Source of the DNA: Bifidobacterium pluvialisilvae
Lineage (GTDB): Bacteria; Actinomycetota; Actinomycetes; Actinomycetales; Bifidobacteriaceae
Assembly: GCF_019331695.1 (NCBI RefSeq)
Contig: NZ_JAHBBI010000016.1
Coordinates: 1 to 41,345 of the forward strand
Length of the DNA stretch: 41,345 nucleotides
Direction of reading: 5' to 3'
Positions within the stretch are counted from its first letter, which is position 1. Each line of letters begins with the position of its first letter. The position numbers and the translations under genes were made by a program. The notes beneath the pieces are model-generated. The model was not told the origin of the DNA, made no database searches, and saw only the letters and a program-made list of their open reading frames with translations. Of this stretch, positions 7,378-26,434 are shown in pieces.

Positions 7378-7440
7378 ATACCGACGGTCAATGCAGTACA
7401 ACTGCCATAAGGCGGCACAACCATCCAAGGAGACCAACCA

Positions 7441-11499: not shown

Positions 11500-11508
11500 A
11501 ATGGGAAT

Positions 11509-12600
11509 ATGAACAGGAACAGGATCGTCGGGCTCATCTCCCTGATCGTCGTCGTCGCCGTGATCTGCGGGTTCGCGGTATGGCGGACGACGTCGAAGTC
11601 CGGCCCCGGGTCCGCGACGCCGACGTCGACCGTGTCCGTCACCGGCTATCTCGGCGGCGAGAAGACCGGCCTGTTCGACGACGACGAATTCGCGAAACTG
11701 GCCGCCGAATCCGGTCTGAAAGTGGACTATCGCAAGGCCGGCTCTCTGGACATGATGACGGCCGACCGTTCCGGCATGGACTATCTGTTCCCCTCCTCGC
11801 GCACCGCCGTCGAATACGGGGCGTCGAAGGGCGTGAAGGCAACGAAACAGGACATCGTCTTCAACTCGCCCATCGTCGTCTACACGCACAAGCCCGTGGC
11901 CGAAGGGCTGGCGAAATCCGGCATCATGACGAAATCCGGTAACGTGTGGCGGCTCGACATGGCGAAGGCCGTCGACGCGATGAAGGCCGGGCGCACATGG
12001 TCGCAAGTCGGGTATGCGGGCGGCTACGGCGTGTTCCACATCGAAAGCACCGACCCGGTGAAATCCAACTCCGGCAACGAATACGCGGCCCTGCTGGCGA
12101 ACACGATGAACGGCGGCCAGCCGGCCACACGGGCCTCGGTGAAACGCGACGCCGCCACCATCCGCGGCATCTTCGCGAAATCCGGATGGATGGAGACGAG
12201 CTCCGAGGACAGCTTCAACCAGTTCCTCACGCTCGGCGTCGGCTCCAAGCCGATGATGGTCGGCTACGAGAGCCAGATCCTCGACCTGGCCGTAAACAAT
12301 CCCGACGCGTATGCTCAGGTGAAGGACGACCTGGTCATCGCCTACCCCACACCGACCGTATGGAGCACGCACACGTTCATGGCGTTGGACGCCAAGGGGG
12401 AGAAGCTGCTGACCCTGCTGGAGTCCAAGCCGGTGCAGAAGCTCGCATGGGAGCGGCACGGCTTCCGCAGCGTCACCTTCTCCGGCACCGACTCCATCAC
12501 ACGGTTCAAGGTGCCCGGCACCGTCGACACCGTGCAGAACGTGACCGAACTGCCACCCAACGACGCCATGCAGGACCTCATCGCCGCATTGAAGCAGTAG
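11509..12600 (+). CDS. Membrane-anchored substrate-binding-like protein (paralogue of 20889-21986)
   Basis: A 363-residue protein with one N-terminal membrane helix (IVGLISLIVVVAVICGFAVW) and an extracellular domain resembling type-2 periplasmic binding proteins. Diagnostic blocks, nearly word for word in the paralogue, are SVTGYLGGEK, YRKAGSLDMM, GMDYLFPSS, STDPVKSNSGNEYAALL, SGWMETSSEDSFNQFLTLGV and YPTPTVWSTH. There is no lipobox and no ABC permease or ATPase next to it. The start at 11509 lies 9 nt after the Zur-like gene with a poor ribosome binding site, which suggests translational coupling. The ligand is unknown; regulation by the adjacent metalloregulator is inferred. Confidence 0.8.
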   Translation: MNRNRIVGLISLIVVVAVICGFAVWRTTSKSGPGSATPTSTVSVTGYLGGEKTGLFDDDEFAKLAAESGLKVDYRKAGSLDMMTADRSGMDYLFPSSRTAVEYGASKGVKATKQDIVFNSPIVVYTHKPVAEGLAKSGIMTKSGNVWRLDMAKAVDAMKAGRTWSQVGYAGGYGVFHIESTDPVKSNSGNEYAALLANTMNGGQPATRASVKRDAATIRGIFAKSGWMETSSEDSFNQFLTLGVGSKPMMVGYESQILDLAVNNPDAYAQVKDDLVIAYPTPTVWSTHTFMALDAKGEKLLTLLESKPVQKLAWERHGFRSVTFSGTDSITRFKVPGTVDTVQNVTELPPNDAMQDLIAALKQ

Positions 12601-12700
12601 CGGTGTCCGGACGGTGGTTAAATCCGGCTCGCGGCGGTGTCCGGACGGTGGCGGGTGGCGTCGGTGAGCGCACACATCCGGCCGTCGCAACCGCATATGC

Positions 12701-12806
12701 CGAGTTGTGGGTGTTCGTCTCGGTTGATTCGGCATGGCGGCGTTGGAATTTCAACGATTATTCTCGGCGAAACGCGATTATCGCCAAATCGAACACCCAC
12801 AACTCG
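12701..12806. repeat. Long palindromic element with perfect 17-bp arms
   Basis: CGAGTTGTGGGTGTTCG (12701-12717) is the exact reverse complement of 12790-12806. Between them lie shorter palindromes such as GTTGGAATTTCAAC. Its position at a gene end suggests termination, but no T-run follows. Its architecture resembles the elements at 8.5, 9.2, 10.9, 32.9 and 34.4 kb. Confidence 0.8.
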
Positions 12807-12904
12807 CGTTTTCGGGGGATGGCCGGTGTTTTTCGGCGGGTGAGCGGGTCCCATATGGATGATGGGTGGTCTGGAACCGTCTTTTTGAGAGAGAAAAATA
12901 ATAA

Positions 12905-12940
12905 CTTCGGCGCATGCCCTGTGCCGGACATGCGCCGAAG
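12905..12940 (-). terminator. Terminator hairpin of the cysteine-rich gene (36-bp repeat, copy 1)
   Basis: CTTCGGCGCATG (12905-12916) pairs perfectly with CATGCGCCGAAG (12929-12940). On the minus strand it is followed by TTATTATTTTTCTC, making a good intrinsic terminator for the minus-strand gene ending at 13061. The whole 36 bp recurs exactly at 14062-14097. Confidence 0.8.
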
Positions 12941-13060
12941 TTGATGGGGAGCCGGGGAATCCTTCTATCGACGTGTCGGTATTCCTATGGCGATCCCTTG
13001 GATGAGGCCTCGCTTTCGTTTGAAGCCGTTCGCGGCCCGTGCAGAAAGGCCGGGCGGAGA

Positions 13061-13393
13061 TCAGGCGGCGAGTTCGGCCTTCAGCTCCTTGAGATCGGCG
13101 AGGATCTCCTCGTGGCACTTCTCGTTGGTGTCGAAGGCGAGGTGGCAGAAGGCGCACTCATGGCCTTCGCGGTTCTCGTGGCAGGCGTGAGCGCAGGACT
13201 TGCCTTCGCAGTGCTTGCAGTCGGCGTCGTTGCAGCAGTCGCCGGTGAAGCAGCAGCCGCAGCAGCCGCAGGCGGCCACGCCGTGCTCGTGCTTGGTCAC
13301 GTCGAACTTGGCCAGGTCGTCCTTGCAGACCGCGAAGGTGCCTTCCTCGGTGACGATCTCGTAGGCGTGCTCGTCGTAGTTCTTGATGGTCAT
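13061..13393 (-). CDS. Cysteine-rich small protein, possible metal-binding protein
   Basis: A 110-residue cytosolic-looking protein. The start has AGAGG 8 nt upstream. Residues 1-37 are ordinary; the middle third is packed with about 14 cysteines and several histidines (AACGCCGCCFTGDCC, CKHC, CHENREGHECAFCH). The end is a charged helix. I do not recognise the family. The CC and CxxC clusters suggest zinc or copper binding, metallothionein-like in style but larger. It is downstream of and codirectional with the zur-like gene, and a Zur-box-like site (13521-13535) lies 128 bp upstream, so a role in zinc storage or delivery is inferred. Confidence 0.75.
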   Translation of the reverse strand: MTIKNYDEHAYEIVTEEGTFAVCKDDLAKFDVTKHEHGVAACGCCGCCFTGDCCNDADCKHCEGKSCAHACHENREGHECAFCHLAFDTNEKCHEEILADLKELKAELAA

Positions 13394-13520
13394 GATGAAC
13401 CTCTTTCCGTATGATTTCCGTATGATGCCGCATCCGCCGCCGATATCGTCGGCCCGTCGTCGCGGCGTTTCCTTGTGACGTACGTCAATATAGGCGCGAA
13501 GCCATGTGGGCGAAAATTAG

Positions 13521-13535
13521 TGAAAGCGATTATCA
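13521..13535. promoter_or_regulatory. Zur-box-like site upstream of the cysteine-rich gene
   Basis: TGAAAGCGATTATCA shares the TGAnAnnnnTTATCA pattern with sites at 14000, 17008 and 18540. It overlaps the last codon and stop of the zur-like gene and lies 128 bp upstream of the cysteine-rich gene. Confidence 0.65.
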
Positions 13536-13970
13536 GTCAGTTATTTCATTGCCGTGCGAATGCGTTTTTGCGCAGTGCTCGCATAGGCCGAATATCTCAA
13601 GGTCGTGGCTGATTTCGGTGAAGTGCACCTTGCGGGCAGCCTGTTTGATCCACTGCTCCAGTCCGGGGATTTCGATTTCGATGGTGCGTCCGCATTCCCG
13701 GCAGACGATGTGATGGTGATGGCCGTGGTCGGAGCATTCCCGGTAGAGCGTCTCGCCGTTGAGGTGCAGGGTGTCGAGTTCTCCCGCCGAGGCCATGAGC
13801 TGGAGGTTGCGGTATACGGTGGCTGTGCCGATGCCGGTGCCCTGTTCGCGCAGTATGCCGGCGATCTCCTGGGCGGTGGCGAATCTGGCGAGGCCGGCCA
13901 GGGTGCGGGAGAGCAGTATTCGTGGTCGTGTCACGCGTTTTGCCGGCGTCTTGCGTGGTTCGTCGTTCAT
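13533..13970 (-). CDS. Fur-family zinc regulator, Zur-like
   Basis: A 145-residue Fur-family repressor. The DNA-binding part includes FATAQEIAGILREQGTGIGTATVYRNLQLM. Metal-site residues are in HGHHHHIVCRECG, EISHDLEIFGLCEHC and a His-containing tail. The ATG at 13970 has GAGG 7 nt upstream. A Zur-box-like sequence lies 30 bp before it (14000-14014), indicating autoregulation. Four similar boxes nearby precede zinc-saving and zinc-uptake genes, so this is the better Zur candidate of the two Fur-family genes in the window. Confidence 0.88.
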   Translation of the reverse strand: MNDEPRKTPAKRVTRPRILLSRTLAGLARFATAQEIAGILREQGTGIGTATVYRNLQLMASAGELDTLHLNGETLYRECSDHGHHHHIVCRECGRTIEIEIPGLEQWIKQAARKVHFTEISHDLEIFGLCEHCAKTHSHGNEITD

Positions 13971-13999
13971 AGGGGCCTCGGTCAACTTCGTATGTTAAA

Positions 14000-14014
14000 T
14001 GAAAACCGTTATCA
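14000..14014. promoter_or_regulatory. Zur-box-like site before the zur-like gene
   Basis: TGAAAACCGTTATCA, a 15-bp imperfect palindrome, lies 30 bp upstream of the start at 13970. It differs from the box at 18540 at only two positions. Confidence 0.75.
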
Positions 14015-14061
14015 TAATCATATGTCCGATGGACAATACGGCTGCCGCCGGAACGATATGG

Positions 14062-14097
14062 CTTCGGCGCATGCCCTGTGCCGGACATGCGCCGAAG
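14062..14097 (-). terminator. 36-bp hairpin repeat, copy 2, after the ZnuA-ZinT gene
   Basis: Identical over 36 bp to 12905-12940, with the same 12-bp perfect stem. It lies just beyond the end of the minus-strand gene at 14124. No T-run follows on the minus strand, so it may be a weaker terminator than copy 1. Confidence 0.65.
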
Positions 14098-14123
14098 ATG
14101 ATGAAGGTCGGAATCCAGCGGCC

Positions 14124-15728
14124 TCAGTGGGCCAGCATTTCCGTGGCGACCTCCTTCGCGCTCATCGAAGCCGGGTAGTAGGTCGGCCAGTTGTCCATCT
14201 CCTTGAGCGTCTGCTCCTGGGATTCGTCGCCCGTGAAGATGTGGAAGTGCGCGGCCTTTCCGGGCGCGATGCCGTGATCGGAGAACTGCACGACCTTCGG
14301 CGCTCCCTGCGGCACGTTGCCGGTGGCGGTGAACAGGTAGCGGACGCCGCGGTTGCCCTTGGCATAGTCGAGGATCCTGAACCCGTCGTACCGATAGGTG
14401 GCGGTGGCTGACCTGCCGTTGCTGGTGAAGGTCATCCGATTCCCCTTGATGACGATTTTCTCCACATCGGTCTTGTATCCGGTGTCGTAGTATTTCTTGT
14501 ATTCGTCAACGGTCATATCGCCCTTCTTGGCCTTGGCCTTGGCCTCCATCACCGAATCCAATGTGCCGTCCTTGAGATACGGGTATACGGACTGCCATTC
14601 GCCGGCGTAGTCGGCGATCGTGCGGTCCTTGACGTCCTGGGTGAGGAAGTAGCCGTTCGTGGTGTCGATGGCCAGGGCCTGATTGGTGATCGAGGTCAGC
14701 CACTCCAGCAGGGTCTTCTTGTTTTCGGGCAGCTGTTCGGTCACCGAGATGATCGTCTTGTTGTGTTTTCTGGCCGCGGCATCCAGCTTCTTGGCGAATT
14801 CGCCCATCTCCTGCGGGTTGACGACGAGAATGTCCACGTCGTTGCCGGAGACGACGTTGATGGCGCTTTTCAGGTCGGACGCCGACGGCTCGGATTCGCT
14901 GTTCATCGCATTGGTGTATGTGGCGGGTGTCTTGTCGACGGCGCCGATGTAGTCGAGCAGATAGTTCGCCACGGATTCGGTGGCGGCGAACCGTCGTTCG
15001 ACGTTCTTCGCACGACCCTTGTTCACCAAGGCGACGAAATCGGCGTAGTCGCCGTTCCATGCATTGGAGTGCCGCTGCACCGTGGCCTCGGTGGAGCCTC
15101 CGTCCGGTGCGGCGTCGGTGTATGCCGCGGTGATGGCCTGCGAGGCCTTGAGCACCGCTTCGGGGCTGAACCAGAGGTGGGGGTTGGTCGAGCCGTGGTG
15201 ATGGTGGTGCCCGTCGCCTTCGTCGTGCTCGTGGCTGTGCTCCTCGGTGGCGGTGATGCCCATGAGGTCGCCCACGTTCACGATCTTTTGCCTGGAGGAA
15301 TCGAGATTCGCCTTTTCCGCCCATCCGTCGTAGCCGGCGCCGTTGATGACGACGACCTGCGCCTTCGACAGCTTGGCGAGGTCCTTTGGCGTGGCCTCGT
15401 AGTCGTGCGGATCGGCGGATGTGGAATTGATCAGTGATGTCACGTTCACGCAGTTGCCGCCGAGCTCCTTGGCGAGTGATCCCCACTGGTTCACGGATGC
15501 GACCACGTCGAGCGTGACGTCGCAGGAATCGGCCACGGTGTCCGCGGCGGTGGTGGCCGTGGAGTCGGTGCCGGCCTGCATGTGGCTTCCGCGATAGGCG
15601 CTTCCGGCCGCGAACGAGCCGATGATCAGGGCGGCGGCAAGGACACCGCCTCCGATGGCGTACAGCGGGCCCCGTCGTTTACGGGATGCCGTTTCGGTGG
15701 CGGCGTTGGTTGTTGCTTCGTTGGTCAT
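14124..15728 (-). CDS. Zinc-binding protein: ZnuA-like domain fused to ZinT domain
   Basis: A 534-residue surface protein. An N-terminal membrane segment (LYAIGGGVLAAALIIGSFAAG) has no lipobox Cys. A ZnuA-type cluster-9 binding domain follows, then a ZinT domain from about residue 365 to the end (AGEWQSVYPYLKDGTLD). In the ZnuA part, DPHDYEATP and NPHLWFSP give two His ligands around a His-rich loop (HSHEHDEGDGHHHHHG). The third His is replaced by Glu in FAATESVANYL. The ZinT triad is intact (His 485, 494, 496: SDHG, HFHIF). AdcA of streptococci is a known fusion of the same kind. The ATG at 15728 is preferred over one at 15755, which has no ribosome binding site. It is the last gene of the Zur-controlled ribosomal-protein operon. 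No permease or ATPase gene is nearby. Confidence 0.9.
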   Translation of the reverse strand: MTNEATTNAATETASRKRRGPLYAIGGGVLAAALIIGSFAAGSAYRGSHMQAGTDSTATTAADTVADSCDVTLDVVASVNQWGSLAKELGGNCVNVTSLINSTSADPHDYEATPKDLAKLSKAQVVVINGAGYDGWAEKANLDSSRQKIVNVGDLMGITATEEHSHEHDEGDGHHHHHGSTNPHLWFSPEAVLKASQAITAAYTDAAPDGGSTEATVQRHSNAWNGDYADFVALVNKGRAKNVERRFAATESVANYLLDYIGAVDKTPATYTNAMNSESEPSASDLKSAINVVSGNDVDILVVNPQEMGEFAKKLDAAARKHNKTIISVTEQLPENKKTLLEWLTSITNQALAIDTTNGYFLTQDVKDRTIADYAGEWQSVYPYLKDGTLDSVMEAKAKAKKGDMTVDEYKKYYDTGYKTDVEKIVIKGNRMTFTSNGRSATATYRYDGFRILDYAKGNRGVRYLFTATGNVPQGAPKVVQFSDHGIAPGKAAHFHIFTGDESQEQTLKEMDNWPTYYPASMSAKEVATEMLAH

Positions 15729-15800
15729 GGTTGTCTTTCTACCGTTGATAATCATGAGGTTTGGGAGCGGTTTGATATATGTGGGGGAGGGGAGACGATT

Positions 15801-15968
15801 TCAGGTCTCGATATACCCCTTGCGGACGGCGCTCGCCAGATGCTGCGGCACCTGGACGGTGCGACCGTCCGGCGTGGTCACTGTGGCGAGGCTCACCGGC
15901 TTCGCCTTCCAGTTGGCGCGGCGCGAACGCGTGTTCGCGCGTGACGTCCGGTATTTCGGATGGGCCAT
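15801..15968 (-). CDS. rpmF: 50S ribosomal protein L32, zinc-independent form
   Basis: A 55-residue L32 ([21 protein letters not shown] at the start, then VTTPDGRTVQVPQHLASAV). It has no cysteine, so it cannot form the zinc knuckle of the usual L32. Its ATG shares the A of the L36 stop codon (TGATG), so translation is coupled. Such C-minus paralogues replace the zinc form during zinc starvation and free zinc. Confidence 0.93.
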   Translation of the reverse strand: MAHPKYRTSRANTRSRRANWKAKPVSLATVTTPDGRTVQVPQHLASAVRKGYIET

Positions 15969-16090
15969 CAGCCCTGCCTCGCTTTCCATCGGGGGTTCTT
16001 CTTGTTGATCACATAGGTGTGGCCGCGCCGGCGTACGACCACCGATCCCGGCTTTCTGGCCATGGACCGGATGGATGCCTTGACCTTCAT
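15968..16090 (-). CDS. rpmJ: 50S ribosomal protein L36, zinc-independent form
   Basis: A 40-residue L36: [20 protein letters not shown], then [20 protein letters not shown]. The Cys/His zinc ligands of standard L36 are absent. GGAAAGGAAG precedes the start. It overlaps L32 by one base and lies 37 nt after S14 in the Zur-controlled operon. The gene is short and easily missed. Confidence 0.93.
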
Positions 16091-16127
16091 GGGAGTCTTC
16101 CTTTCCGTATGGTGATTCTCCTGCCGT

Positions 16128-16433
16128 TCACCAGCTCGATTTGGTGACGCCGGGCAGGTTGCCGGCGTGGGCGAGGTCGCGCATGCGCACTCGCGAAACG
16201 GCGAACTTGCGCAGATAGCCGCGCGGACGCCCGTCGATGGAATCGCGGTTGCGCAGTCTGGTGGGGCTGGCGTCTCGCGGCAGGGCGTGCAGTGCCTTCA
16301 TCGCGGCTTCGCGCTCCGCCTCGCTGATATGGGGGTTGACGCCGGCCTTCTTGAGTTCGGCGCGTCGTTCGGCGTATTTTGCCACGATACGTTCGCGTTG
16401 GCGTTGCCGGGCGATCTTACTGGTCTTGGCCAT
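16128..16433 (-). CDS. rpsN: 30S ribosomal protein S14, zinc-independent long form
   Basis: A 101-residue S14 ([49 protein letters not shown]). It is the long, cysteine-free version, unlike the short 61-residue zinc form. The ATG at 16433 has AAGGAG at a 10-nt spacing; an ATG three codons upstream is only 1 nt from it. Third gene of the alternative ribosomal-protein operon. Confidence 0.95.
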
Positions 16434-16455
16434 GATTTTCATACTCCTTGTGGTC

Positions 16456-16626
16456 TCATCGCGTTTCGCGGAAGATGACGCGTTTTTTGACGATCGGATC
16501 GTATTTCATGAGTTCCAGTCGTTCGGGTGTGTTCCGTCGGTTCTTCCGGGTGGTGTAGGTGAATCCGGTGCCTTCCGTCGACCGCATCGTGATGACCGGG
16601 CGGATGTCGGATGATTTGCTTGCCAT
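16456..16626 (-). CDS. rpmG: 50S ribosomal protein L33, zinc-independent form
   Basis: A 56-residue L33 ([39 protein letters not shown]). No cysteines, so zinc is not needed. GAAGGAACC precedes the start at 16626. Second gene of the operon, between L28 and S14. Confidence 0.95.
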
Positions 16627-16749
16627 GATGGTTCCTTCGATGAAGATGCCGGCCGCGGAAGATGGAGAAACGCGACCGGCAAGACTGTGATGCCGCAAGC
16701 CGGTCTGGATGCCGGGCCGGCTTGCGGCGTGTTGTGCCGTCGATGGGCG

Positions 16750-16989
16750 TCAGGCCGTGATCTCGTTGCGGCGGATCAATTCGGCGACCACGACGTCGAT
16801 GCCCCGACGGTCGATGGTCCTGATGCCGCGGGCGGAGACGGTCAGGGTGATTCGGCGCCCCAGTGAGGGGACCCAATAGGTCTTGTGCTGGAGGTTCACG
16901 CCAAAGCGTCGGCGGGTCTTGCGGTGCGAATGGGAGACGCGGTTGCCGACTCCGGCCCGCCTCCCGGTGACTTGACAATGTTTGGTCAT
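16750..16989 (-). CDS. rpmB: 50S ribosomal protein L28, zinc-independent form
   Basis: A 79-residue L28 of the mycobacterial RpmB2 type ([40 protein letters not shown]). It has one cysteine, not the CxxC pairs of the zinc form. First gene of the operon, 18 bp downstream of the Zur box at 17008-17022. An S18 paralogue, part of the mycobacterial operon, is absent here. Confidence 0.95.
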
Positions 16990-17007
16990 GGATGTCATCA
17001 TAGCTAA

Positions 17008-17022
17008 TGAGAATCATTATCA
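17008..17022. promoter_or_regulatory. Zur-box-like site between L28 and the CobW-like gene
   Basis: TGAGAATCATTATCA lies in the divergent spacer, 18 bp before L28 and about 140 bp before the CobW-like gene. It could control both directions. Confidence 0.8.
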
Positions 17023-17158
17023 CAAATTGGTGATGCATGAGATCGCGTCATGCGTGGAAACGCAACGGTTGTCCGGGATGGCTCCCGGCGCGTCGCCGGG
17101 ATATCCCGGCTGCGGAATCCGTCGGGCCGGTTCATGCGCTACCAGTGGAAAAGGAATC

Positions 17159-18454
17159 ATGGATATCAACGAACCGATGCATATGGCCAAGGCCGATATG
17201 TCGGAGCCCCTTCGTCCTGACCGTGTCGTGCTGCTGACCAGCATGGATGGTGTTACCCGAGACCTCGCCGCATTCTGCGCGGGTGACGGTCCGGATGTCT
17301 GTGTCATCCGATATCGCGTGGAACGGCGATTCATGGGAATGGAGCAGTCGGACGATGACTCGCACTCGATAATGCATGAGGGCTGTCTGTCCGACGTGGC
17401 CATTGTGCGAACGGTGCAGGGCTGCTCCCTGGTGACGCACGGCGAGGAACGCTTTGCGATGCCTGGCTGTTGCGTGACGTGCGCCATCAAATCCGATGTG
17501 GAGCGCATGATTGTGGGGTTGGGCAATGCCATACGCCGCTGTGGCGTGTGCACGGGCGTCACCTTCGTCGTCGTGCTGCCCGTGGGACTGCAGGCGTTCC
17601 CCATCGCCCAGTATCTTGACGACTGCTTTTCGTTCGCCGACGATCTCGGCGACAACGGTACGGTGACGCCCGTGCCGCGTGTCGCCGCCGTGGCGACGGT
17701 CGTGAACGAGGTGGGGTTGCGTGACCGGTTGTTCGACGACGCCCCGTTCGAGTCCGACGACGGCGACGTGGTCATTGTGGACGAACGGTCGGTCGGCGAG
17801 GTCGAGGCGCTGCTGTTGCGGGAGGCGAGTCATGTGCTCACCATATCCGCGTGGACCGGGGAGATCGACGAACCGGATTGCGGTTCGATGTGGATGGGCG
17901 AGCTGATCGGTCAGATCCGTTCGTCCGACGACGCGAAGATCGAATGCGCCTGCGATGTCGACTGGCGGGCCCTGGCCTCGGGCTCGTATTCGCTTGATGG
18001 GGCGCAGCGTCGGCTTGACGCCCTGTCGCTGCGGCGGTCCTGCGACAGTCCCGTCCAGACGCATATGCCGGTTCGGCTGGAATGCTCCAGGGACGGGTTC
18101 GAGGCCACCGTGGTGCATTCGCCGAGACCGGTGCATCCGGGGCGGCTGTCGACGCTGCTCAACGAAATCGAAACGCCGGTGCATATCCGAGGCCATTTCA
18201 CCGTGCCGACCAAGCCGTTTTCGGTGTTCGTGTGGGAGGGCGGCCCCGGCGGGGTCTCCATCGAGGAGCTTGACAACATCGAGGGCGATCTGCCGGCGGA
18301 GACGATACTGCAGATCGTCTCCGCCGTGCATACGGATATCCCGTTGCGGTTGGAATGGCTGCTGCTCACCGATGACGAGTTGAGGATGCCGACGACGTCA
18401 TGGTTCGACCAGGCCGACGAGTTCACTGCATGGAGCAACGCCGCGCATCGCTGA
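17159..18454 (+). CDS. CobW-like protein without a P-loop
   Basis: A 431-residue protein related to the COG0523/CobW metallochaperones. The N-terminal strand RVVLLTSMDGVTRDLAAF stands where G3E GTPases have the Walker A motif GxxGxGKT, which is missing. The metal motif appears as PGCCVTCAIKSDVERMI, matching the family's GCxxC region. The CobW C-terminal domain is recognisable near residues 340-400 (LLNEIETPVHIRGHFTVPTKP, FVWEGGPGG). Zur-controlled relatives are thought to hand zinc to client enzymes with GTP hydrolysis; without a P-loop this one probably does not hydrolyse GTP. The ATG at 17159 has AAAAGGA upstream. It is divergent from the zinc-free ribosomal proteins across one Zur box. Confidence 0.78.
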   Translation: MDINEPMHMAKADMSEPLRPDRVVLLTSMDGVTRDLAAFCAGDGPDVCVIRYRVERRFMGMEQSDDDSHSIMHEGCLSDVAIVRTVQGCSLVTHGEERFAMPGCCVTCAIKSDVERMIVGLGNAIRRCGVCTGVTFVVVLPVGLQAFPIAQYLDDCFSFADDLGDNGTVTPVPRVAAVATVVNEVGLRDRLFDDAPFESDDGDVVIVDERSVGEVEALLLREASHVLTISAWTGEIDEPDCGSMWMGELIGQIRSSDDAKIECACDVDWRALASGSYSLDGAQRRLDALSLRRSCDSPVQTHMPVRLECSRDGFEATVVHSPRPVHPGRLSTLLNEIETPVHIRGHFTVPTKPFSVFVWEGGPGGVSIEELDNIEGDLPAETILQIVSAVHTDIPLRLEWLLLTDDELRMPTTSWFDQADEFTAWSNAAHR

Positions 18455-18539
18455 TCGCCCATAGGATTTCCCGCATCGTGCGTGTCGGCTTGGGAAACGC
18501 CGTGATGGGCGATGATTGACGGGTGATTTTCATCAATAA

Positions 18540-18554
18540 TGAAAACGATTATCA
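18540..18554. promoter_or_regulatory. Zur-box-like site before the ZnuA lipoprotein
   Basis: TGAAAACGATTATCA lies 67 bp upstream of the start at 18622. An AT-rich TTTATGTGTATACT follows, with TATACT (18563-18568) as a possible -10, so the box would cover or abut the promoter. Confidence 0.8.
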
Positions 18555-18621
18555 ATTTATGTGTATACTGGGGCGTGGAATTCCTCAGAGAGGGGAATGC
18601 AACGGTAGAAAGCTGGAAGAA

Positions 18622-19557
18622 ATGACGATTTGGACGAAGAAACTGCAGCGCAAGGTGACCGTGCTGGCCGCGGCGACGGCGGCGGTGGTCATGACCGCAG
18701 GGCTTGCGGCATGCGGGAACAGTGCATCCGGCGGCGCATCGCAGTCCGCCGACAACGGGGGAAGCTCCAAGATCGAAGTTGTGGCGAGCATCAACCAGTG
18801 GGGTTCCGTCGCCGAGGCCCTCGGCGGCGACAAGGTCGACGTGCAGTCGATCATGAAGAGCACGAACGTGGAGGCCCACGATTACGAGCCGTCCACCTCC
18901 GACGTCGCCGCGTTCACCAAGGCGCAGGTCGCCGTGGTGAACGGCGCCGACTACGATCCATGGGCGTCGAAGGCCGCGGCCTCCACCAAGGCCGACGTGG
19001 TGAACGCCGCTGAGACCGACGGCATCAAGGAAGGCGACAACCCGCATGTCTGGTTCTCCAAGGACGTGCGCGAGAAGACCGCCGACGCCATCACCGCCGC
19101 CTATGAGAAGGCCATGCCCGACCAGAAGGACTACTTCGAGCAGCAGCACAAGAACTGGGAGGTCCAGGAGCAGAAGGTCGAGGACAAGATCAAAGCCGCA
19201 TCGGCCAAGACCAAGGGCGTGCCGTACGGTGCCAGTGAATCCGTCGCATGGTATCTCGCCGACGACCTCGGCATGACCGACACCACGACGAGCGGCTACA
19301 AGAACGCCAGCGCCAACGAAAGCGAGCCCTCGCCCGCCGACGTCAAGCAGTTCGCCGACGCCCTGAAGGCCGGCAAGATGAAGGTGTTCGTGCTCAACAC
19401 GCAGGAGGCCAACGACACCACCAAGCAGCTGGAGTCCGCCGCCGCCGAAGGCAACGTGCCCGTGGTGAAGCTCACCGAGCAGATGCCGCAGGAGTACACC
19501 AGCCTCACCGACTGGATGAGCGCCCTGGTCGACGACTTCGACAGCGCGGTGAAGTGA
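18622..19557 (+). CDS. Zinc ABC transporter substrate-binding lipoprotein, ZnuA-like
   Basis: A 311-residue lipoprotein with signal peptide and lipobox LAAC at Cys 31. Cluster-9 metal-binding motifs are VEAHDYEPST and NPHVWFSKD (two His ligands). As in the neighbouring fusion protein, the expected third His is a Glu (GASESVAWYL). NESEPSPADVKQF and VFVLNTQEAND follow. There is no His-rich loop. GGAAGAA precedes ATG 18622. No znuB or znuC lies in the window; the partner transporter must be elsewhere. It has its own Zur-box-like site and a good terminator. Confidence 0.9.
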   Translation: MTIWTKKLQRKVTVLAAATAAVVMTAGLAACGNSASGGASQSADNGGSSKIEVVASINQWGSVAEALGGDKVDVQSIMKSTNVEAHDYEPSTSDVAAFTKAQVAVVNGADYDPWASKAAASTKADVVNAAETDGIKEGDNPHVWFSKDVREKTADAITAAYEKAMPDQKDYFEQQHKNWEVQEQKVEDKIKAASAKTKGVPYGASESVAWYLADDLGMTDTTTSGYKNASANESEPSPADVKQFADALKAGKMKVFVLNTQEANDTTKQLESAAAEGNVPVVKLTEQMPQEYTSLTDWMSALVDDFDSAVK

Positions 19558-19572: not shown

Positions 19573-19620
19573 GCCGGTTCACTCTTTATGGGGATACACA
19601 AAGAGTGAACCGGCTTTCTC
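19573..19620 (+). terminator. Terminator hairpin of the ZnuA gene
   Basis: GCCGGTTCACTCTTT (19573-19587) pairs perfectly with 19600-19614 (15 bp) around a 12-nt loop, followed by TTTCTC. It is the first of three consecutive perfect hairpins. Confidence 0.85.
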
Positions 19621-19627
19621 GTATATC

Positions 19628-19676
19628 GGACGTGCCGTCCACTGAAAACCGCATGGTTCCAGTGGACGGCACGTCC
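19628..19676. repeat. Perfect 17-bp hairpin between two related hairpins
   Basis: GGACGTGCCGTCCACTG (19628-19644) pairs exactly with 19660-19676. Inside the loop AACC/GGTT can extend pairing. The hairpin is bracketed by a direct repeat CTCGTATAT on each side. Confidence 0.85.
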
Positions 19677-19691
19677 TCGTATATGTTTTGC

Positions 19692-19728
19692 GGTTCACTC
19701 TTTACGCCCCCTGTGCAAAGAGTGAACC
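19692..19728. terminator. Third hairpin, at the end of the telA operon
   Basis: GGTTCACTCTTT (19692-19703) pairs perfectly with AAAGAGTGAACC (19717-19728). The arms are the same as the core of the hairpin at 19573-19614, with a different loop. It lies 8 bp beyond the telA stop on the minus strand. Confidence 0.75.
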
Positions 19729-19736
19729 ACGCTCGG

Positions 19737-20885
19737 CTACCGACCGAGCTGCTGGGCGTTCTCGATGAGCGCGTTCTTCAGGTCGCCTTCGAGTTGGCGC
19801 ATCTTCACCTCGGCGGCCTGGCGGCTGGCCTTGCCCTCCTTCTGGATTTGCACGGTCTCGCGCAGTGTGGAGATCAGCTCCGAGTTCACCTTCTCCAGCG
19901 TCTCGATGTCGACCACGGAACGCTGGTTGGCCTTCTCGGCATCAACGGCGCCCTGGTGCAGCGCACGGGCGTTGGCCTGGATGAGCCGGTTGGTCACGTC
20001 GTCGGTCTTCTTCTGCAGCTCCAGCGCCTGACGCTGGTTCTCCAGACCCAGCGCGATGACCATCTGGCTCTTCCACACCGGAATCGTGGTGGAGATGGTG
20101 GTGTCGATCTTGTCGCACACCATCTGGTCGGCGTTCTGGATGATTTTGATCTGCGGCGCGGTCTGCAGGCAGATCACGCTCACACGGTCGAGATCGTCGA
20201 GACGCTTGGCGAAGCGCTCCAGCTTGGCCTTGAAGTCGGAGAGGATTTGCGCCTGCATGGGGTCCTGTGCGGCGGCGGCCTCCTGCTCGAGCTTCGGCAG
20301 CTGGTTCGCGTTGAAGTCCGCCAGCGCCTTCTTGCCGGCGAGCACGGTGATCTTCAGGTCGCGGTACTGCTCGGCGTTGCGTTCGTACATGGTGTTGAAC
20401 ATCGAGATGTCGGAGATGAGCTGGCTCTGCGAGCTTTCCAGCTTGGAGACGATGTCGTCGATCTGCGTGGAGACCTTCTCGTAGCGGCGGCGCAGCTTGT
20501 TGATGTTCACGGCGATCGTGCCGAGGATCGGCACCTTCTTGATGCCGCTGAGCTCGGCCTCGTCCACGGTGACGAGCAGTCCCTGCAGCAGTTCGCCCGC
20601 CTGCCCGGCGTCCTTGGAGCGGGTCTTGGAGAGGATGTCGTCGGCGAACGTCGACGTGGCACGCTGCACGTCCTTGCCGTAGGCCGATTCGATGCCCGAC
20701 TTGGTCAGGTCGAGGGAGCCGGCGAGCTGCTGCACCTTCGCCTGGTCGGCGGGGCTGAGCTTGGCGATCTGCTGGTCGGGCGTGGCGTCGGCCGCCAGCG
20801 CCTGCTGGTCGGGCGTGGTGGCGAGGTCCACGGCCTGGGAGGTCTGCGCGCCTCCGGCGAGGTCGCTGAGAGAGATTTCCTTCAT
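19737..20885 (-). CDS. telA: TelA-family toxic anion resistance protein
   Basis: A 382-residue, largely helical cytosolic protein of the TelA/KlaA family. Recognisable blocks: LLVTVDEAELSGIKKVPILGTI, LDRVSVICLQTAPQIKIIQ and TTISTTIPVWKSQMVIALGL. The rest is coiled coil rich in Gln, Lys and Glu. Family members are linked to tellurite, colicin or antimicrobial tolerance, but the biochemical role is not known. It is the last gene of the four-gene operon, 3 nt after the anchored binding protein. Confidence 0.93.
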   Translation of the reverse strand: MKEISLSDLAGGAQTSQAVDLATTPDQQALAADATPDQQIAKLSPADQAKVQQLAGSLDLTKSGIESAYGKDVQRATSTFADDILSKTRSKDAGQAGELLQGLLVTVDEAELSGIKKVPILGTIAVNINKLRRRYEKVSTQIDDIVSKLESSQSQLISDISMFNTMYERNAEQYRDLKITVLAGKKALADFNANQLPKLEQEAAAAQDPMQAQILSDFKAKLERFAKRLDDLDRVSVICLQTAPQIKIIQNADQMVCDKIDTTISTTIPVWKSQMVIALGLENQRQALELQKKTDDVTNRLIQANARALHQGAVDAEKANQRSVVDIETLEKVNSELISTLRETVQIQKEGKASRQAAEVKMRQLEGDLKNALIENAQQLGR

Positions 20886-20888
20886 GGT

Positions 20889-21986
20889 TTATTGTCCTTT
20901 CGAGAGCGTGGTGATGATCGCCTGCATGGCGTCGTTGTTGGGCAGTTCGGAGACGGCGGTGATCTGGTCGACGGTGCCGGGCACCTTGAACCGTTTGATG
21001 CCGTCGGTGCCGGTGAAGTTGGCCGAACGGAAGCCGTGCCGTTGCCAGGCGAGCTTCTGCATATCGTCGCTCTTGAGCAGCGTCAGCAGTTTGCGTCCCT
21101 TGTCGTCGAGCGGTATGAGCATGTGCGTGGACCATACGGTCGGCGTCGGGTAGACGATGACGATGTCGTCCTTCACCTGGTTCCATGCGTCGGGCTGGTT
21201 CGCGGCCACGTCGAGCACCTGGCTCTCATAGCCGATCATCATGGGCTTGGATCCGACGCCCAGCGTGAGGAACTGGTTGAAGCTGTCCTCCGAGCTGGTC
21301 TCCATCCATCCGGATTTCGAGAAGATGGTCTGCAAGGTGGCCTTGTCGCGCTGCACGGACTGCACGGTCGCCGGCTGCCCGCCGTTGAGCACCGTGGCCA
21401 CCAAAGCCGCGTATTCGTTTCCGGAGTTGGATTTCACCGGGTCGGTCGAGTCGATGCGGAACTGTCCGTAGCCGCCCGACCATCCGACCTGCGCCCACGT
21501 CTTGTTGCTCTTCAATGCGTCGACGGCCTTGGTCATGTCCATGCGGTAGACGCCGTCGGTCTTGCTCATCAGGCCGGTTTTCACCAGTCCGTCGGCCACC
21601 TGCTTGTGCGTGTAGATGACGATGGGGGAGTTGAAGACGATATCGGCGCCCGACGTGTCGATTTTCTTCGACTTGCCGTATTCGACGGCGACCTTCGATG
21701 ACGGGAAGAGATAATCCATGCCGTTGTTGTCGGCGTCCATCATGGCCAACGACCCGGCCTTGCGGTAGTCGATCTTCAGGCCGTTCTTCGCGGCGAGATT
21801 CTTGAACTCCTGGTCCTCGAACAGGGTGATCTTCTCGCCGCCCAGATAGCCGGTCACGCTTTGGGTCTGCACCGGCTTTGGCGCGGTGCTGGTCTTCCAG
21901 TTGCGGAACACGGTGACGCCGCCGATCACCAGCACCACGACCAGCAGCGCGGCGAGGCCGATGACCTTCGATTTCGAGAGTTTCAC
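20889..21986 (-). CDS. Membrane-anchored substrate-binding-like protein (paralogue of 11509-12600)
   Basis: A 365-residue protein with one N-terminal membrane helix (VIGLAALLVVVLVIGGVTVF) and an extracellular type-2 binding-protein-like domain. It shares block after block with the protein at 11509: SVTGYLGGEK, YRKAGSLAMM, GMDYLFPSS, STDPVKSNSGNEYAALV, SGWMETSSEDSFNQFLTLGV and YPTPTVWSTH. The start overlaps the end of the XpaC-like gene by ATGA. There are no transporter genes, so a sensing or chaperone role seems likelier than uptake (inference). Confidence 0.83.
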   Translation of the reverse strand: MKLSKSKVIGLAALLVVVLVIGGVTVFRNWKTSTAPKPVQTQSVTGYLGGEKITLFEDQEFKNLAAKNGLKIDYRKAGSLAMMDADNNGMDYLFPSSKVAVEYGKSKKIDTSGADIVFNSPIVIYTHKQVADGLVKTGLMSKTDGVYRMDMTKAVDALKSNKTWAQVGWSGGYGQFRIDSTDPVKSNSGNEYAALVATVLNGGQPATVQSVQRDKATLQTIFSKSGWMETSSEDSFNQFLTLGVGSKPMMIGYESQVLDVAANQPDAWNQVKDDIVIVYPTPTVWSTHMLIPLDDKGRKLLTLLKSDDMQKLAWQRHGFRSANFTGTDGIKRFKVPGTVDQITAVSELPNNDAMQAIITTLSKGQ

Positions 21987-22870
21987 GACTTGACTCCTTT
22001 CTGAGCCGTTGCGTCGTATGGGGGAACGTGTGCGGGGGATGCCGGGCCTGCGGGGGCGGCGGACGTCGGCGCCGCATATCCCGCCTGTATCGTCTGCTTC
22101 GGTGGCATCGGTGACGCCTGTGATGTTTGCGGAGTCGGTGACGTCTGTGGGAAGTTCGCCGGCGTCTCGTAAGGTATCGGCGACACGTAGGCCGACCGCT
22201 GGCGCTTGTCGCCGCCCGGCCGCGTCGTACCGTCGGCCGAGGGCAGGGTGTCGTGTGTCGTCTCCACGCTGTAGCCGTCCATGCTGGCGAGCCGGGCGAT
22301 GGCCTCCGAGTCGGCGGACAGGGCCAGCGTCTTCGCCTCGACGGCGTGGGAGAGCTCGCCGGCGGCGGTCTGTTCGAGCACCTGCATGGCGTTGATGGTG
22401 TCGATGCGCGCCTTGGCCAGCTGGTCGCGGGCGCCGGAGCGTTCGACCTCCACATAGCCTTGGAGCAGGTTCTGCGTCTGGTCGCCGTACACGTTGATGA
22501 AGTGGCGCAGCGTCTCGTAGGCGCGGGGGTTGTCCTCGACGAACGAGGTGAGCGCCTTCGTGGCCACGACGATGTCGTTGACCTCCTTGCGCACCGCCGG
22601 GTCGCGCACCTGCGACATGAGTCCCTTGATGGCGTTCATTCGTGCATTGGCCATGTCGATGGCCTCGATGGCCTTCTGCCCGTTGGGCACGGCCGAGGCG
22701 AGCACCTTGCCGAGCTTGCGTTCGGGCTGGGTGAGGTACGAGACGCCGATGTATCCGCCGGCGGCCACGATCACGGCGCCGACGAGCCCGATGACGCCGC
22801 CGCCCGCCACCCAGAACGTGAGGGCGGCGAGCCCGAGACCGGCGACGAAGCTGATGATGGTGCTGATCAT
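21983..22870 (-). CDS. XpaC-like (5-bromo-4-chloroindolyl phosphate hydrolysis family) protein
   Basis: A 295-residue protein with two N-terminal membrane helices (MISTIISFVAGLGLAALTFW; GVIGLVGAVIVAAGGYIGVS). A helical cytoplasmic domain of the XpaC type follows (VRDPAVRKEVNDIVVATKAL, YGDQTQNLLQGYVEVERSGA). Residues after about 215 are Pro/Ser/Thr-rich and probably disordered. XpaC and TelA are neighbours in many Gram-positive genomes. It overlaps the VWA gene upstream and the binding protein downstream by 4 nt each. Confidence 0.83.
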   Translation of the reverse strand: MISTIISFVAGLGLAALTFWVAGGGVIGLVGAVIVAAGGYIGVSYLTQPERKLGKVLASAVPNGQKAIEAIDMANARMNAIKGLMSQVRDPAVRKEVNDIVVATKALTSFVEDNPRAYETLRHFINVYGDQTQNLLQGYVEVERSGARDQLAKARIDTINAMQVLEQTAAGELSHAVEAKTLALSADSEAIARLASMDGYSVETTHDTLPSADGTTRPGGDKRQRSAYVSPIPYETPANFPQTSPTPQTSQASPMPPKQTIQAGYAAPTSAAPAGPASPAHVPPYDATAQKGVKS

Positions 22871-24624
22871 CCGTTGAATCCCTTCACCTCGCGGAAGATG
22901 GTGGCGAGGTCCTCGGAGCGGCCGTCGAACACCTTCGCGTTGGAGAGTTTCGCGAGTTCGTTGAGCTGGGATGGGTCGGCCTCGCCGAACATGATGGAGA
23001 ACACGGGCACGTCATGGCCGGAGGACTTGTACTGCTTGGTGAACGCGTCCTTGTTGCCGGTCTGTGAGACGCCGTCGGTCATCAATACGATGGCGGTGGT
23101 GTAGTCGGTGGTGTTCGTCGGCATGTTCTGCAGGGCCTTTTCGAGGCCGGCGTAGATGTCGGTGCCGCCGATCGTGTCGGTTTCCTGGCCGCGTTGGAGG
23201 ATGGCCGTCGTGTCGGTGCCGGTGGATTTGGTCGGGTCCTGGGCGTTGCCGGAGAACGGGATGAGGATGTTCACGTCGTTCTTGCCGGCTTCGAGATGCG
23301 ACTGTTTGGCCTGGCTTTGGTTGAGGGCCGCGTTGAGGCCGCGTACGACGCCGTCCTTGCCATCGCCCTGCATGGAGCCGGAATAGTCGACCACCCATAC
23401 CGTCCAGCTGGGCTTGCGCAGGCTGGACTGGTAGACGTTCAGCGATTCGTCGATGACGTCGGCGGCGGGCAGGGGGATGGTCTTCAATGCGTCGGCGCCG
23501 GTGTTGATGCCCCATTCGCTGCGGAACGCGTCCTTGACCTTGGCGTCGTTCTTGTAGGTGAGCACGCCGGCGAGACCGGTGCGTCGGCCCGCGCGTTCAA
23601 ACAGCAGTTTGGCGTCCTTGGACTGCAATGCCTTGGAGAAGGAGCCGAAGGCGTCATCGAGGTTCTGTCCGCGGTCGACGTAGCCGAGCGGGGAGTCGGA
23701 GACGGCGATGCCATCGGAGGGATATACGGCGAGCAACGGGTCCTTGCCTTTGGAGGTCAGGGTCTTGTCGGCCTGGATGACGAGGCTTTCGTAGTTGACC
23801 ATGGCGTTGAAACGGTCGGGGTTGGCGACGACCATGTCCTTGAGCCAGTCGCTGGATCCGGAGGAGCGGTCGACGCCGGAGAGCAGCGTGTGGACGCTGG
23901 CCTGCACGCTCGCGTTGTTGAGGTCGGTCTTGGTGAGCGCCTGGTTCTTGCCGGCGATGGCGGTGAGGAACGCGAGGTAGGCGCTGGCGCCGGAGTTCGA
24001 TTGGGTGGCGCTGGTCATGGAGAACGTGAGTTTCTTCGCCTTCACCGCGTCGATGACGTCCTGCGTCTTCACGGCCTTGGTGGTGCCGTCCGCATTGGCC
24101 CATCCGAGCTGCTGCGCTTTGGATTTGGCGATGCCGAACACGATGGGCGTGGTGGAGGTGCTGGTGGCGTTCTTGACGATGTGCTTGGTGTCGCCCATCG
24201 TGATCCACATCGACGACGCCGGCCAGACGGCGTCATAGGATTTGCCGCCGTTCTTCAGCACGTTCATGATGTCGAGCGAGCCCATGTAGTCGATGGTCAC
24301 GCCGATCTTGGAGTCGTCGACCGCGCGTTGGATGGCCGCGGAAACCTCCTTGTTCTCCGATCCGGAGGCGATCTTCAGCGTGGCCGTGGCGTTGCCGTCG
24401 GCGGGTTTGTAGGTTTCCGTCTTGCCGTTGTTCGATGTGACCGGCTTCGCCGACGATGTGGGGTCCGTCTGCGAGGTGTCGGTCGATGCCGAAGCGCCCC
24501 CGTTGCCGTTGTTCTGCGAATCCGTGTTGCCGGAGCATCCGGCGAGTAGCATCACCATCGCGAGTACCGCGGCGATGGCCGCGACCGTCCAGGTTTTCAT
24601 CGACGAACGTACTGCCCTGAACAT
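22867..24624 (-). CDS. Lipoprotein with binding-protein-like and VWA domains
   Basis: A 585-residue secreted lipoprotein. The signal peptide ends in LLAGC. An N-terminal type-2 binding-protein-like domain (about 80-390; LKIASGSENKEVSAAIQRAV, YMGSLDIMNVL, YDAVWPASSMW) is followed by a von Willebrand A domain (about 405-580). The metal-ion-dependent adhesion site is complete: DYSGS (Asp 413, Ser 415, Ser 417), Thr 488 and Asp 517 in MTDG. The domain should therefore bind a divalent cation and a protein partner outside the membrane. The ATG at 24624 is chosen for AGGAG 5 nt upstream. First gene of the operon; it overlaps the XpaC-like gene by ATGA. Confidence 0.87.
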   Translation of the reverse strand: MFRAVRSSMKTWTVAAIAAVLAMVMLLAGCSGNTDSQNNGNGGASASTDTSQTDPTSSAKPVTSNNGKTETYKPADGNATATLKIASGSENKEVSAAIQRAVDDSKIGVTIDYMGSLDIMNVLKNGGKSYDAVWPASSMWITMGDTKHIVKNATSTSTTPIVFGIAKSKAQQLGWANADGTTKAVKTQDVIDAVKAKKLTFSMTSATQSNSGASAYLAFLTAIAGKNQALTKTDLNNASVQASVHTLLSGVDRSSGSSDWLKDMVVANPDRFNAMVNYESLVIQADKTLTSKGKDPLLAVYPSDGIAVSDSPLGYVDRGQNLDDAFGSFSKALQSKDAKLLFERAGRRTGLAGVLTYKNDAKVKDAFRSEWGINTGADALKTIPLPAADVIDESLNVYQSSLRKPSWTVWVVDYSGSMQGDGKDGVVRGLNAALNQSQAKQSHLEAGKNDVNILIPFSGNAQDPTKSTGTDTTAILQRGQETDTIGGTDIYAGLEKALQNMPTNTTDYTTAIVLMTDGVSQTGNKDAFTKQYKSSGHDVPVFSIMFGEADPSQLNELAKLSNAKVFDGRSEDLATIFREVKGFNG

Positions 24625-25104
24625 CTCATCTCCTGTTATCCCGAGTCTTTCCGCGTCGCATGATTCGCTTTGGGAATATCGCCGAAAAGACACTGTTCCG
24701 TATACCCATTGTCGTCCGGCGACGTTGCCGAAGGCGGATTTGCGAATGAATGGAGGATGAACAGAAGGTTACGTTTTGGTGTGTATTGTCGGGGGTGCCG
24801 AAAATATGTCTTTTGAAAGGCGTTGTTTTACAAGGAAACGACAACGTCAATCATTATACGGGGGTATGACGATGTTGTTTGAGATTAATGGGGGAGCGTG
24901 GGGTGAAACGTGACGGGACGTGTGATGGTCGGCGGCTGTTTTTGGTGACGGACTCCCCTCAGTCGGCTTCGCCGACAGCTCCCCTCAACGAGGGGAGCCA
25001 GAAAAACGACTGAAGTGAAATAACGTGTGTGGCCGCAAGGCGTGGGGAACGAAGGCGTACTGCGTACGTCGAGTTCCCCACAACGCAGCGGACACTCCGT
25101 TATT
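24625..25104. other. Gene-free divergent region between the VWA operon and purD
   Basis: No gene is supported. On the minus strand TATAAT (24853-24858) is a possible -10 for the VWA operon, giving a long leader of over 200 nt; no clear -35 is seen. A CTCCCCTCAGTCGG repeat (24953-24999) and a nested hairpin (25010-25113) occupy the rest. Confidence 0.5.
24953..24999 (+). repeat. CTCCCTCAGTCGG-type palindromic repeat
   Basis: CTCCCCTCAGTCGGCTTCGC followed by CGACAGCTCCCCTCAACGAG and GGGAGCC. Stems GTCGGC/GCCGAC and GGCTCCCCT-type arms match the copies at 7143-7189 and 7226-7268. Confidence 0.8.
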
Positions 25105-25113
25105 TCACTTCAG
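25010..25113. terminator. Long nested hairpin overlapping the purD stop
   Basis: The outer arms CTGAAGTGAAATAACG (25010-25025) and 25098-25113 are perfect over 16 bp. Inside, GTGGGGAAC/GTTCCCCAC (25042-25050/25073-25081) and CGTAC/GTACG (25056-25060/25064-25068) are nested. The right arm includes the last codons and stop of purD. It probably terminates the pur operon, though no T-run is seen. Confidence 0.7.
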
Positions 25114-26379
25114 GGCTTTGGCGCCGATGTCGTGGCGATAGAACAACCCCTCCGTGTCGAGCGAGTCGATGATCGCGTAGACCTTGTCCTGTGCGGCCTG
25201 GAGGGTGTCGGCGGTGGTTTCGACGAGGAGGACGCGGCCGGAGTTGGCGATGAGCTGGTCGCCGTTGGCGCCGGTGGTGGTGACGCCGGCGTAGTAGACG
25301 TGGGAGTCGTCGTCGACGGCGATGTCGGGAACCTTGGCGCCTTTGATGACGTTGGTGGGGTAGCCGTTGGAGGCGAGGACGACGCCGAGGGTGGCGCGCT
25401 GGTCGTCCCAGGTGAAGGTGGGGGTTTCGCCGTTGAGGATGGCCCAGATGCCGGCGCCGAGGTCGGAGGTGAGCTTGGGGAGGACGACTTCGGTTTCGGG
25501 GTCGCCGAAGCGGGCGTTGAATTCGATGACCTTGGGGCCGTCGGCGGTGGCGATGAGGCCGGCGTAGAGGATGCCGGTGAAGGGGGTGCCTTCGTCGACC
25601 ATGGCCTTGGTGACGGGCCTGACGATGGTGTCGATGGCCTGGTCGACGACGGACTGGGCGATCTGGGGGACGGGGCTGTAGGCGCCCATGCCGCCGGTGT
25701 TGGGGCCTTCGTCGTTGTCGTGGGCGCGCTTGTGGTCCTGGGAGATGGGCATGGTCCAGAATTCGTCGCCGCGGACGAAGCTCATGAGGGAGAATTCCTG
25801 GCCTTCGAGGAATTCCTCGATGACGACGGAGGCTCCGGCGGCGCCGAAGCGGTGGTCGATGAAGATTTCGTCGAGGGCTTCGATGGCTTCGTCTTCGGTC
25901 ATGGCGACGGTGACGCCCTTGCCGGCGGCGAGTCCGTCGGCCTTGATGACGATGGGGGCGCCGTGCTCCTTGACGTATTTGACGGCGGGGTCGAGGCTTT
26001 CGAAGGTGGCGTAGGCGGCGGTGGGCACGTCGTGACGCTGCATGAGTTCCTTGGCGAAGGTCTTGGAGCCTTCGATCTGGGCGGCCTTCTTGTTGGGGCC
26101 GAACGCCTTGACGCCGGCGGCTTCGTAATCGTCGACGAGTCCTTCGATGAGGGGGACTTCGGGGCCGATGAACACCCAGTCGATGTCGTTCTGTACGGCG
26201 AAGTCGATGAGGGCGGCGTGGTTCTCCTCGTTGAGCTGGACGATGCGGATGCCGTCGGCGATCATGCCGGGGTTGCCGGGGGCGACGTACACCTCGTCGA
26301 CGCTGTCGCCTTTGAGGAGGGTGTGCGCGATGGTGTGTTCGCGGGCGCCGGAGCCGATGACCAGTACTTTCTGACCCAT
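25105..26379 (-). CDS. purD: Phosphoribosylamine-glycine ligase (GARS)
   Basis: A 424-residue ATP-grasp enzyme that joins phosphoribosylamine and glycine in the second step of purine synthesis. It begins MGQKVLVIGSGAREHTIAHT and contains GPEVPLIEGLVDDYEAAG, PIVIKADGLAAGKGVTVAMT, SVVIEEFLEGQEFSLMSFV, NTGGMGAYSPVPQ and VIEFNARFGDPETEVVLP. Complete length. The ATG at 26379 has AAAGGA 10 nt upstream. Third gene of purF-purM-purD, 55 nt after purM. Confidence 0.97.
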   Translation of the reverse strand: MGQKVLVIGSGAREHTIAHTLLKGDSVDEVYVAPGNPGMIADGIRIVQLNEENHAALIDFAVQNDIDWVFIGPEVPLIEGLVDDYEAAGVKAFGPNKKAAQIEGSKTFAKELMQRHDVPTAAYATFESLDPAVKYVKEHGAPIVIKADGLAAGKGVTVAMTEDEAIEALDEIFIDHRFGAAGASVVIEEFLEGQEFSLMSFVRGDEFWTMPISQDHKRAHDNDEGPNTGGMGAYSPVPQIAQSVVDQAIDTIVRPVTKAMVDEGTPFTGILYAGLIATADGPKVIEFNARFGDPETEVVLPKLTSDLGAGIWAILNGETPTFTWDDQRATLGVVLASNGYPTNVIKGAKVPDIAVDDDSHVYYAGVTTTGANGDQLIANSGRVLLVETTADTLQAAQDKVYAIIDSLDTEGLFYRHDIGAKALK

Positions 26380-26434
26380 GTTGTCAGGTCCTTTCAATCA
26401 GTTCGTGAGTGCGTATTGCCGTATTGTGCGTGGA

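Follow-up and report, generated by a model that had tools for sequence, protein, structure and literature searches.

What are two binding proteins on the outside of the cell doing in one operon with TelA and XpaC when no transporter accompanies them? The question is raised by a four-gene cassette of Bifidobacterium pluvialisilvae, carried on the minus strand of a 41,345-nucleotide (nt) stretch (contig NZ_JAHBBI010000016.1) that was analysed whole and is referred to here as the window. We find that this cassette recurs in Actinomycetota, Clostridia and Desulfobacterota, and we propose, at slightly less than an even chance, that it encodes a single envelope device in which a transporter-free pair of substrate-binding proteins (SBPs) senses an anionic ligand and signals through XpaC to TelA. 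The cassette comprises the following features, whose four minus-strand genes, placed between 24624 and 19737 by an earlier sequence-only reading, we confirmed from the sequence.

22867..24624, minus strand: SBP-VWA lipoprotein gene, 585 amino acids (aa); lipobox LLAGC with Cys30; VWA assigned by Pfam
23407..24396, minus strand: SBP domain, residues 77-406 of the lipoprotein; type II binding-protein fold
22870..23403, minus strand: VWA domain, residues 408-585 of the lipoprotein; metal site D413, S415, S417, T488, D517
21983..22870, minus strand: XpaC membrane protein; PF10112; residues 1-47 hydrophobic and followed by a helical part
20889..21986, minus strand: membrane-anchored SBP, 365 aa, GTG start; helix 5-33, then a binding-protein fold
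19737..20885, minus strand: TelA; PF05816; without a hydrophobic stretch, presumably cytoplasmic

The genes are tightly packed. The start of the SBP-VWA gene at 24624 is preceded by AGGAG (the open frame extends back to 24693), its end overlaps XpaC by 4 nt (ATGA), XpaC overlaps the SBP gene by 4 nt (GTGA) and a 3-nt gap separates the SBP gene from TelA; the first overlap and the gap had been read correctly, but the second had been given as ATGA and is GTGA, the SBP gene starting with GTG. The names given to TelA and XpaC held when compared with Pfam, both proteins scoring above the cut-offs: TelA matched PF05816 at 304.9 bits (cut-off 30; model positions 1-331 of 332) and XpaC matched PF10112 at 43.6 bits (cut-off 29.8). 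The SBP-VWA protein matched VWA models (PF00092, 36.1 bits against a cut-off of 23.8) and, in the 26 sequences compared, D413, S415 and S417 never vary and the conservation of T488 and D517 is 90% or more, so that the intact metal site proposed for it is upheld. Hydropathy profiles placed N-terminal hydrophobic stretches at residues 8-34 of the SBP-VWA protein, 1-31 of the anchored SBP and 1-47 of XpaC, and a scan of TelA found no hydrophobic stretch; because of this, any contact between the outer part and TelA would have to pass via XpaC or the membrane anchor of the SBP.

The binding-protein domains called for closer comparison. Neither the SBP-VWA protein nor the anchored SBP of the window matched PF13531 (type II solute-binding protein), but homologues of the former matched it at 2.5e-17 to 3e-13, 5 of 12 anchored SBPs did so too, at no better than 4.6e-5, and the predicted structures of both window proteins present the type II binding-protein fold. 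Together with a profile comparison of the two domains, these matches and folds support the prediction that both outer proteins carry SBP domains. The earlier claim of two binding-protein-like domains therefore stands on fold, homologues and profile comparison, but a Pfam match in the window proteins themselves was not obtained. PDB sequence searches with the SBP-VWA protein, the SBP and TelA returned no useful match, and a profile of the SBP-VWA protein matched known VWA domains in the PDB through its VWA part.

How widely the four genes keep company was addressed with one scan of named genomes using the anchored SBP, in which the best 80 of 466 relatives were retained and resolved into 78 distinct loci; because the best relatives were retained, Bifidobacterium is over-represented. 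As judged by our own profiles, 52 of the 78 loci carry the first order, SBP-VWA, XpaC, SBP, TelA (37 Bifidobacterium, 10 Coriobacteriia and 5 Clostridia; one of the Coriobacteriia loci has a second XpaC-like match and one of the Clostridia loci is truncated at a contig end). A second order, SBP, TelA, SBP-VWA, is found in 13 loci, all Actinomycete, and the remainder consists of 10 loci with a lone SBP and 3 Desulfobacterota loci without TelA, one of which ends at a contig edge. A Desulfobacterota genome (L137) likewise carries the complete first order, and the second order is found in two Nonomuraea genomes (L127, L128) and on Sphaerotilus and Variovorax plasmids. Thus the view that the four genes form one unit was borne out: rather than failing to co-occur elsewhere, they recur together in Actinomycetota, Clostridia and Desulfobacterota, and since the recurrence spans distant phyla the cassette is more than a chance arrangement. 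A single contig of Bifidobacterium saimiriisciurei carries two oppositely oriented cassette regions (L049, L050) some 38 kb from each other, either through duplication or as an assembly artefact.

In all 13 Actinomycete trio loci a fourth open reading frame (ORF), of 188 to 223 aa, overlaps the stop of the SBP-VWA gene. Searched against 5398 ORFs, a profile of this family found only its own members and four XpaC ORFs (two of them one gene fetched twice, a third near-identical); in four later loci it again found XpaCs only, although one of these loci (L129) had previously been counted. Comparison of the fourth-gene protein with XpaC by hhalign gave 51%, and a PF10112 search of three fourth-gene proteins gave no match. 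With moderate confidence, we take the fourth gene of the second order for a divergent XpaC.

Evenly drawn samples of 197 Actinomycetota, 249 Bacillota and 148 Desulfobacterota genomes (the last with the centre genome included) allowed co-occurrence to be counted. In the Actinomycetota, TelA was above the cut-off in 11 genomes, SBP in 8 and both in 7, with TelA and SBP less than 3 kb apart in all seven (Fisher p = 1.3e-9, or 2.0e-8 excluding our own genome, in a test that ignores kinship); the eighth SBP-bearing genome (G109) has a lone SBP with an apparent N-terminal extension. The Bacillota sample held TelA above the cut-off in 28 genomes and SBP in 2, each adjoining TelA, and SBP was present in 3 of the Desulfobacterota and in 8 of 61 genomes of a Bifidobacterium family sample that included our own. 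The cassette is therefore sparse but broad, its sampled frequencies being low yet spread over several phyla. The host genome is 2.66 Mb, and among named relatives its anchored SBP is closest to those of Bifidobacterium.

TelA loci that lack the cassette indicate what its core may be. From 32 Bacillota TelA places above the cut-off, 20 were read, in 20 genomes without a standalone SBP: XpaC adjoins TelA in 15, neither partner does in 4, and SBP-VWA does in 1. Two related Desulfobacteraceae genomes pair TelA with XpaC and have, close by, a VWA lipoprotein in which no SBP domain was recognised. By these cassette-free loci, the core held in common is XpaC-TelA, to which the outer SBP and VWA parts appear to have been added as a module. 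In a 6.8 Mb Bacillota genome (L165, 2398-5256) SBP-VWA lies immediately upstream of TelA, and XpaC and a second SBP were not found in that stretch.

Phylogenetic trees built from 47 chosen TelA rows and 34 chosen SBP rows both split the two gene orders on deep branches with full support (100/100), which matches the expectation for genes that travel together. In the TelA tree, cassette-free TelAs are interspersed on both sides of the split and the first-order TelAs are not monophyletic, so that the outer module may have been gained by TelA more than once, or lost repeatedly. Bifidobacterium branches in both trees with the Coriobacteriia and apart from the remaining Actinomycetes, a pattern suggesting that the cassette has moved between gut lineages; the finer placement is uncertain because several branches are long. 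One TelA that stands without the other three genes (L033, genome G245, 6964-8112) nevertheless falls, in the TelA tree, among those of the Coriobacteriia/Bifidobacterium cassette group and is perhaps the remnant of a lost cassette.

Published work (PMC12791056) connects TelA and XpaC with stress from toxic anions and at the envelope, as the sequence-only reading had stated; the link is to Listeria and Bacillus and not to this organism, disruption of TelA in Listeria is reported to lead to higher sensitivity to nisin and tellurite, and the mechanism is described as unknown. A review proposes that TelA builds sub-membrane structures that bar the entry of phage or xenobiotics (PMC7824862). The predicted fold and several ligand-site positions of the cassette SBPs agree with those of the sulfate/molybdate binding proteins Sbp, CysP and ModA. 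We picture two related, transporter-free binding proteins outside the membrane, one a VWA lipoprotein and the other on a membrane helix, with XpaC across the membrane and TelA inside. Judging from fold and site positions, the SBPs would most likely take a small anion, either an oxyanion or a wall-stress compound that carries phosphate or sulfate; the VWA metal site would probably join the two SBPs together or dock them onto a partner at the surface; ligand binding would be relayed through XpaC to TelA; and TelA, acting beneath the membrane, would raise tolerance of anionic toxicants and wall-active agents. The idea, offered as inference in the sequence-only reading, that the outer part serves as a chaperone or sensor recruiting TelA stays conjectural in its recruitment step, and nothing found here speaks for a chaperone. 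It is possible, though rather doubtful, that the cassette represents an undescribed kind of transmembrane sensor in which paired SBPs with a metal-dependent VWA clasp switch XpaC-TelA; if this were true, TelA would be the output of a receptor and not a stand-alone resistance protein.

Several observations weigh against the proposed device. A cassette of the second order on a Deinococcus plasmid is without TelA, and in the SBP of that cassette Ser replaces N187, which is invariant elsewhere; in three Desulfobacterota loci (L106, L107, L136) TelA is non-adjacent, and for a fourth (L108) it was found neither in the locus nor by a search of the genome. The XpaC profile finds only 4 of 19 fourth-gene proteins, weakly (E 0.03-0.2). 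When profiles were compared with E. coli ModA or Sbp as single sequences, the probability was just 0.3-3%, for which reason the mapping of the pocket relies on a forced multiple alignment and on the fold, and SBP families for thiamine, hexose phosphate, iron and polyamines differ in score by no more than a few Z units. Besides the neglect of kinship in the Actinomycetota test, co-occurrence in the Bacillota alone is non-significant (p = 0.11; 1/1 excluding the centre genome).

The neighbours of the cassette in the window, on which several of the rival explanations draw, are as follows.

24625..25104, minus strand: presumed promoter region, 480 nt, separating the operon start from the upstream gene at 25105-26397, which we take to be PurD
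19601..19736, minus strand: inverted repeats, a possible terminator, between the TelA stop and the convergent ZnuA gene; seen in the sequence
11029-19557: ZnuA, ZinT-ZnuA, two Fur-family genes and an S14 paralogue

The sequence GGTTCACTCTTT is present more than once in the successive inverted repeats (19601-19736) between the TelA and ZnuA stops. Scans of the 480-nt gap found neither a minus-strand sigma70-like match nor a Zur-like box. Across 37 Bifidobacterium upstream regions, with start sites assigned by a crude rule, there was no shared promoter motif: no 8-mer exceeded 16/37, and LexA-like and HAIR-like matches numbered 0 and 4. The zinc-starvation neighbourhood at 13061-19557 holds the ZinT-ZnuA fusion, ZnuA, a weak CobW-like match, the S14 paralogue and a Fur-family gene; Zur-like boxes lie at 17008 and 18540, and the window has 6 matches with at most 2 mismatches where 0.3 would be expected. 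Near a Fur-family gene, a cysteine-rich 110-aa protein (13061-13393, minus strand) has no Pfam match at E 0.001. The Fur-family gene at 11029-11499 is followed, 9 nt on, by a paralogue of the anchored SBP that stands alone (11509-12600, plus strand; 67% identical). The Bifidobacterium loci include seven lone SBP copies, at least some of which have different neighbours (L025-L027), and in three lone SBPs from Nonomuraea and one other actinomycete (L111, 6584-7990; L121, 6515-7990; L138, 5980-7536) an apparent N-terminal extension replaces the short anchor; L121 gave no Pfam match.

Ordinary uptake, with the SBPs as orphan receptors for an ATP-binding cassette (ABC) permease located elsewhere in the genome and with TelA and XpaC as historical neighbours, would give the SBPs their normal role in importers, and one Clostridium locus (L102) indeed has an ABC pair immediately upstream, overlooked by the ABC-ATPase motif. 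However, ORFs with that motif occur in just 11 of the 78 loci and at variable distance, a large mixed similarity cluster of flanking ORFs, some with the motif, reaches only 19, and ABC_tran was found in 7 of 101 flanking genes (hand-picked from 164 candidate ORFs of 32 loci, with all of the Variovorax plasmid locus, L141, excluded). In line with the sequence-only reading, no ABC permease or ATPase consistently partners the binding proteins among these loci and chosen genes; what recurs across phyla is the cassette and not a permease, and one of the two SBPs carries a VWA fusion. We regard uptake as quite unlikely. That the cassette belongs to the adjacent zinc-starvation (Zur) regulon is favoured by the zinc genes that share the window and by the SBP paralogue 9 nt after one of the Fur-family genes, but is highly improbable: no Zur-like box was found at the operon, and the Clostridial, Coriobacterial, Actinomycete and Desulfobacterota loci among the 78 have no match to the zinc genes of the window. 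Zinc-uptake neighbours are confined to seven Bifidobacterium loci (L047-L050, L052, L086, L098, of which L049 and L050 are one genome), and with 7/78 loci and no box at the operon a zinc regulon as the general role was ruled out.

The same neighbours bear on a second metal-related idea, in which the cassette would aid the metal- or cofactor-loading or folding of exported proteins, the VWA domain gripping clients and the SBPs bringing the cofactor, in the manner of Bacillus TerC. Work on TerC ties tellurite-resistance genes to the metalation of exported enzymes (PMC10550928), the VWA metal site is conserved, and zinc genes adjoin the cassette in part of Bifidobacterium; the limitation of these neighbours to seven loci, the want of an upstream Zur-like box and the position of the sole above-cut-off TerC gene of the genome on another contig make it unlikely all the same. 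An envelope-acting exclusion or anti-phage system would accord with the proposed TelA structures that block phage or xenobiotics (PMC7824862) and with the Variovorax plasmid, where the cassette has a Wadjet operon some 2.4 kb downstream, yet we give it only a slim chance, since PADLOC 2.0 matched 0 of 8 cassette proteins at E 0.01 and, in the 101 chosen flanking genes, gave mad3 7, AriA 4, mad8 3 and mad2 1. With nothing consistent in these two sets, a defence island was ruled out as the general setting. On that plasmid (L141, 5100-17464) the second-order cassette is followed by an ASCH-domain gene and the Wadjet operon, and a flotillin gene lies upstream.

TelA, XpaC and the SBP-VWA architecture already have names; for the four-gene unit, no paper was among the matches listed, and an earlier mention is possible. 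Relatives carry the NCBI name 'substrate-binding and VWA domain-containing protein', which describes the same architecture in records without a function. Sbp, CysP and ModA share the predicted fold and several ligand-site positions, but the cassette SBPs are tethered and paired, one is fused to VWA and no ABC transporter is consistently linked to them, which suggests that several phyla have perhaps co-opted binding proteins for a purpose that is not uptake. The Ter stress-response systems (TerC, TerD, TelA and TerF vWA) likewise bring TelA together with a VWA protein, but in the cassette the VWA domain sits in a lipoprotein, fused to an SBP, and this genome, with TerD absent and TerC on another contig, does not hold a Ter system around it. 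Closest is the XpaC-TelA pair of Bacillus (xpaC-yaaN) and Listeria (lmo1966-lmo1967), in which the same families are adjacent and, in Listeria, reportedly tied to the envelope and tellurite (PMC12791056). Nineteen of the 20 cassette-free Bacillota loci have neither outer gene beside TelA and the twentieth has SBP-VWA only, whereas the cassette adds an outer SBP and SBP-VWA in conserved orders and, by joining TelA and XpaC to two ligand-binding proteins, offers a route to the mechanism of TelA.

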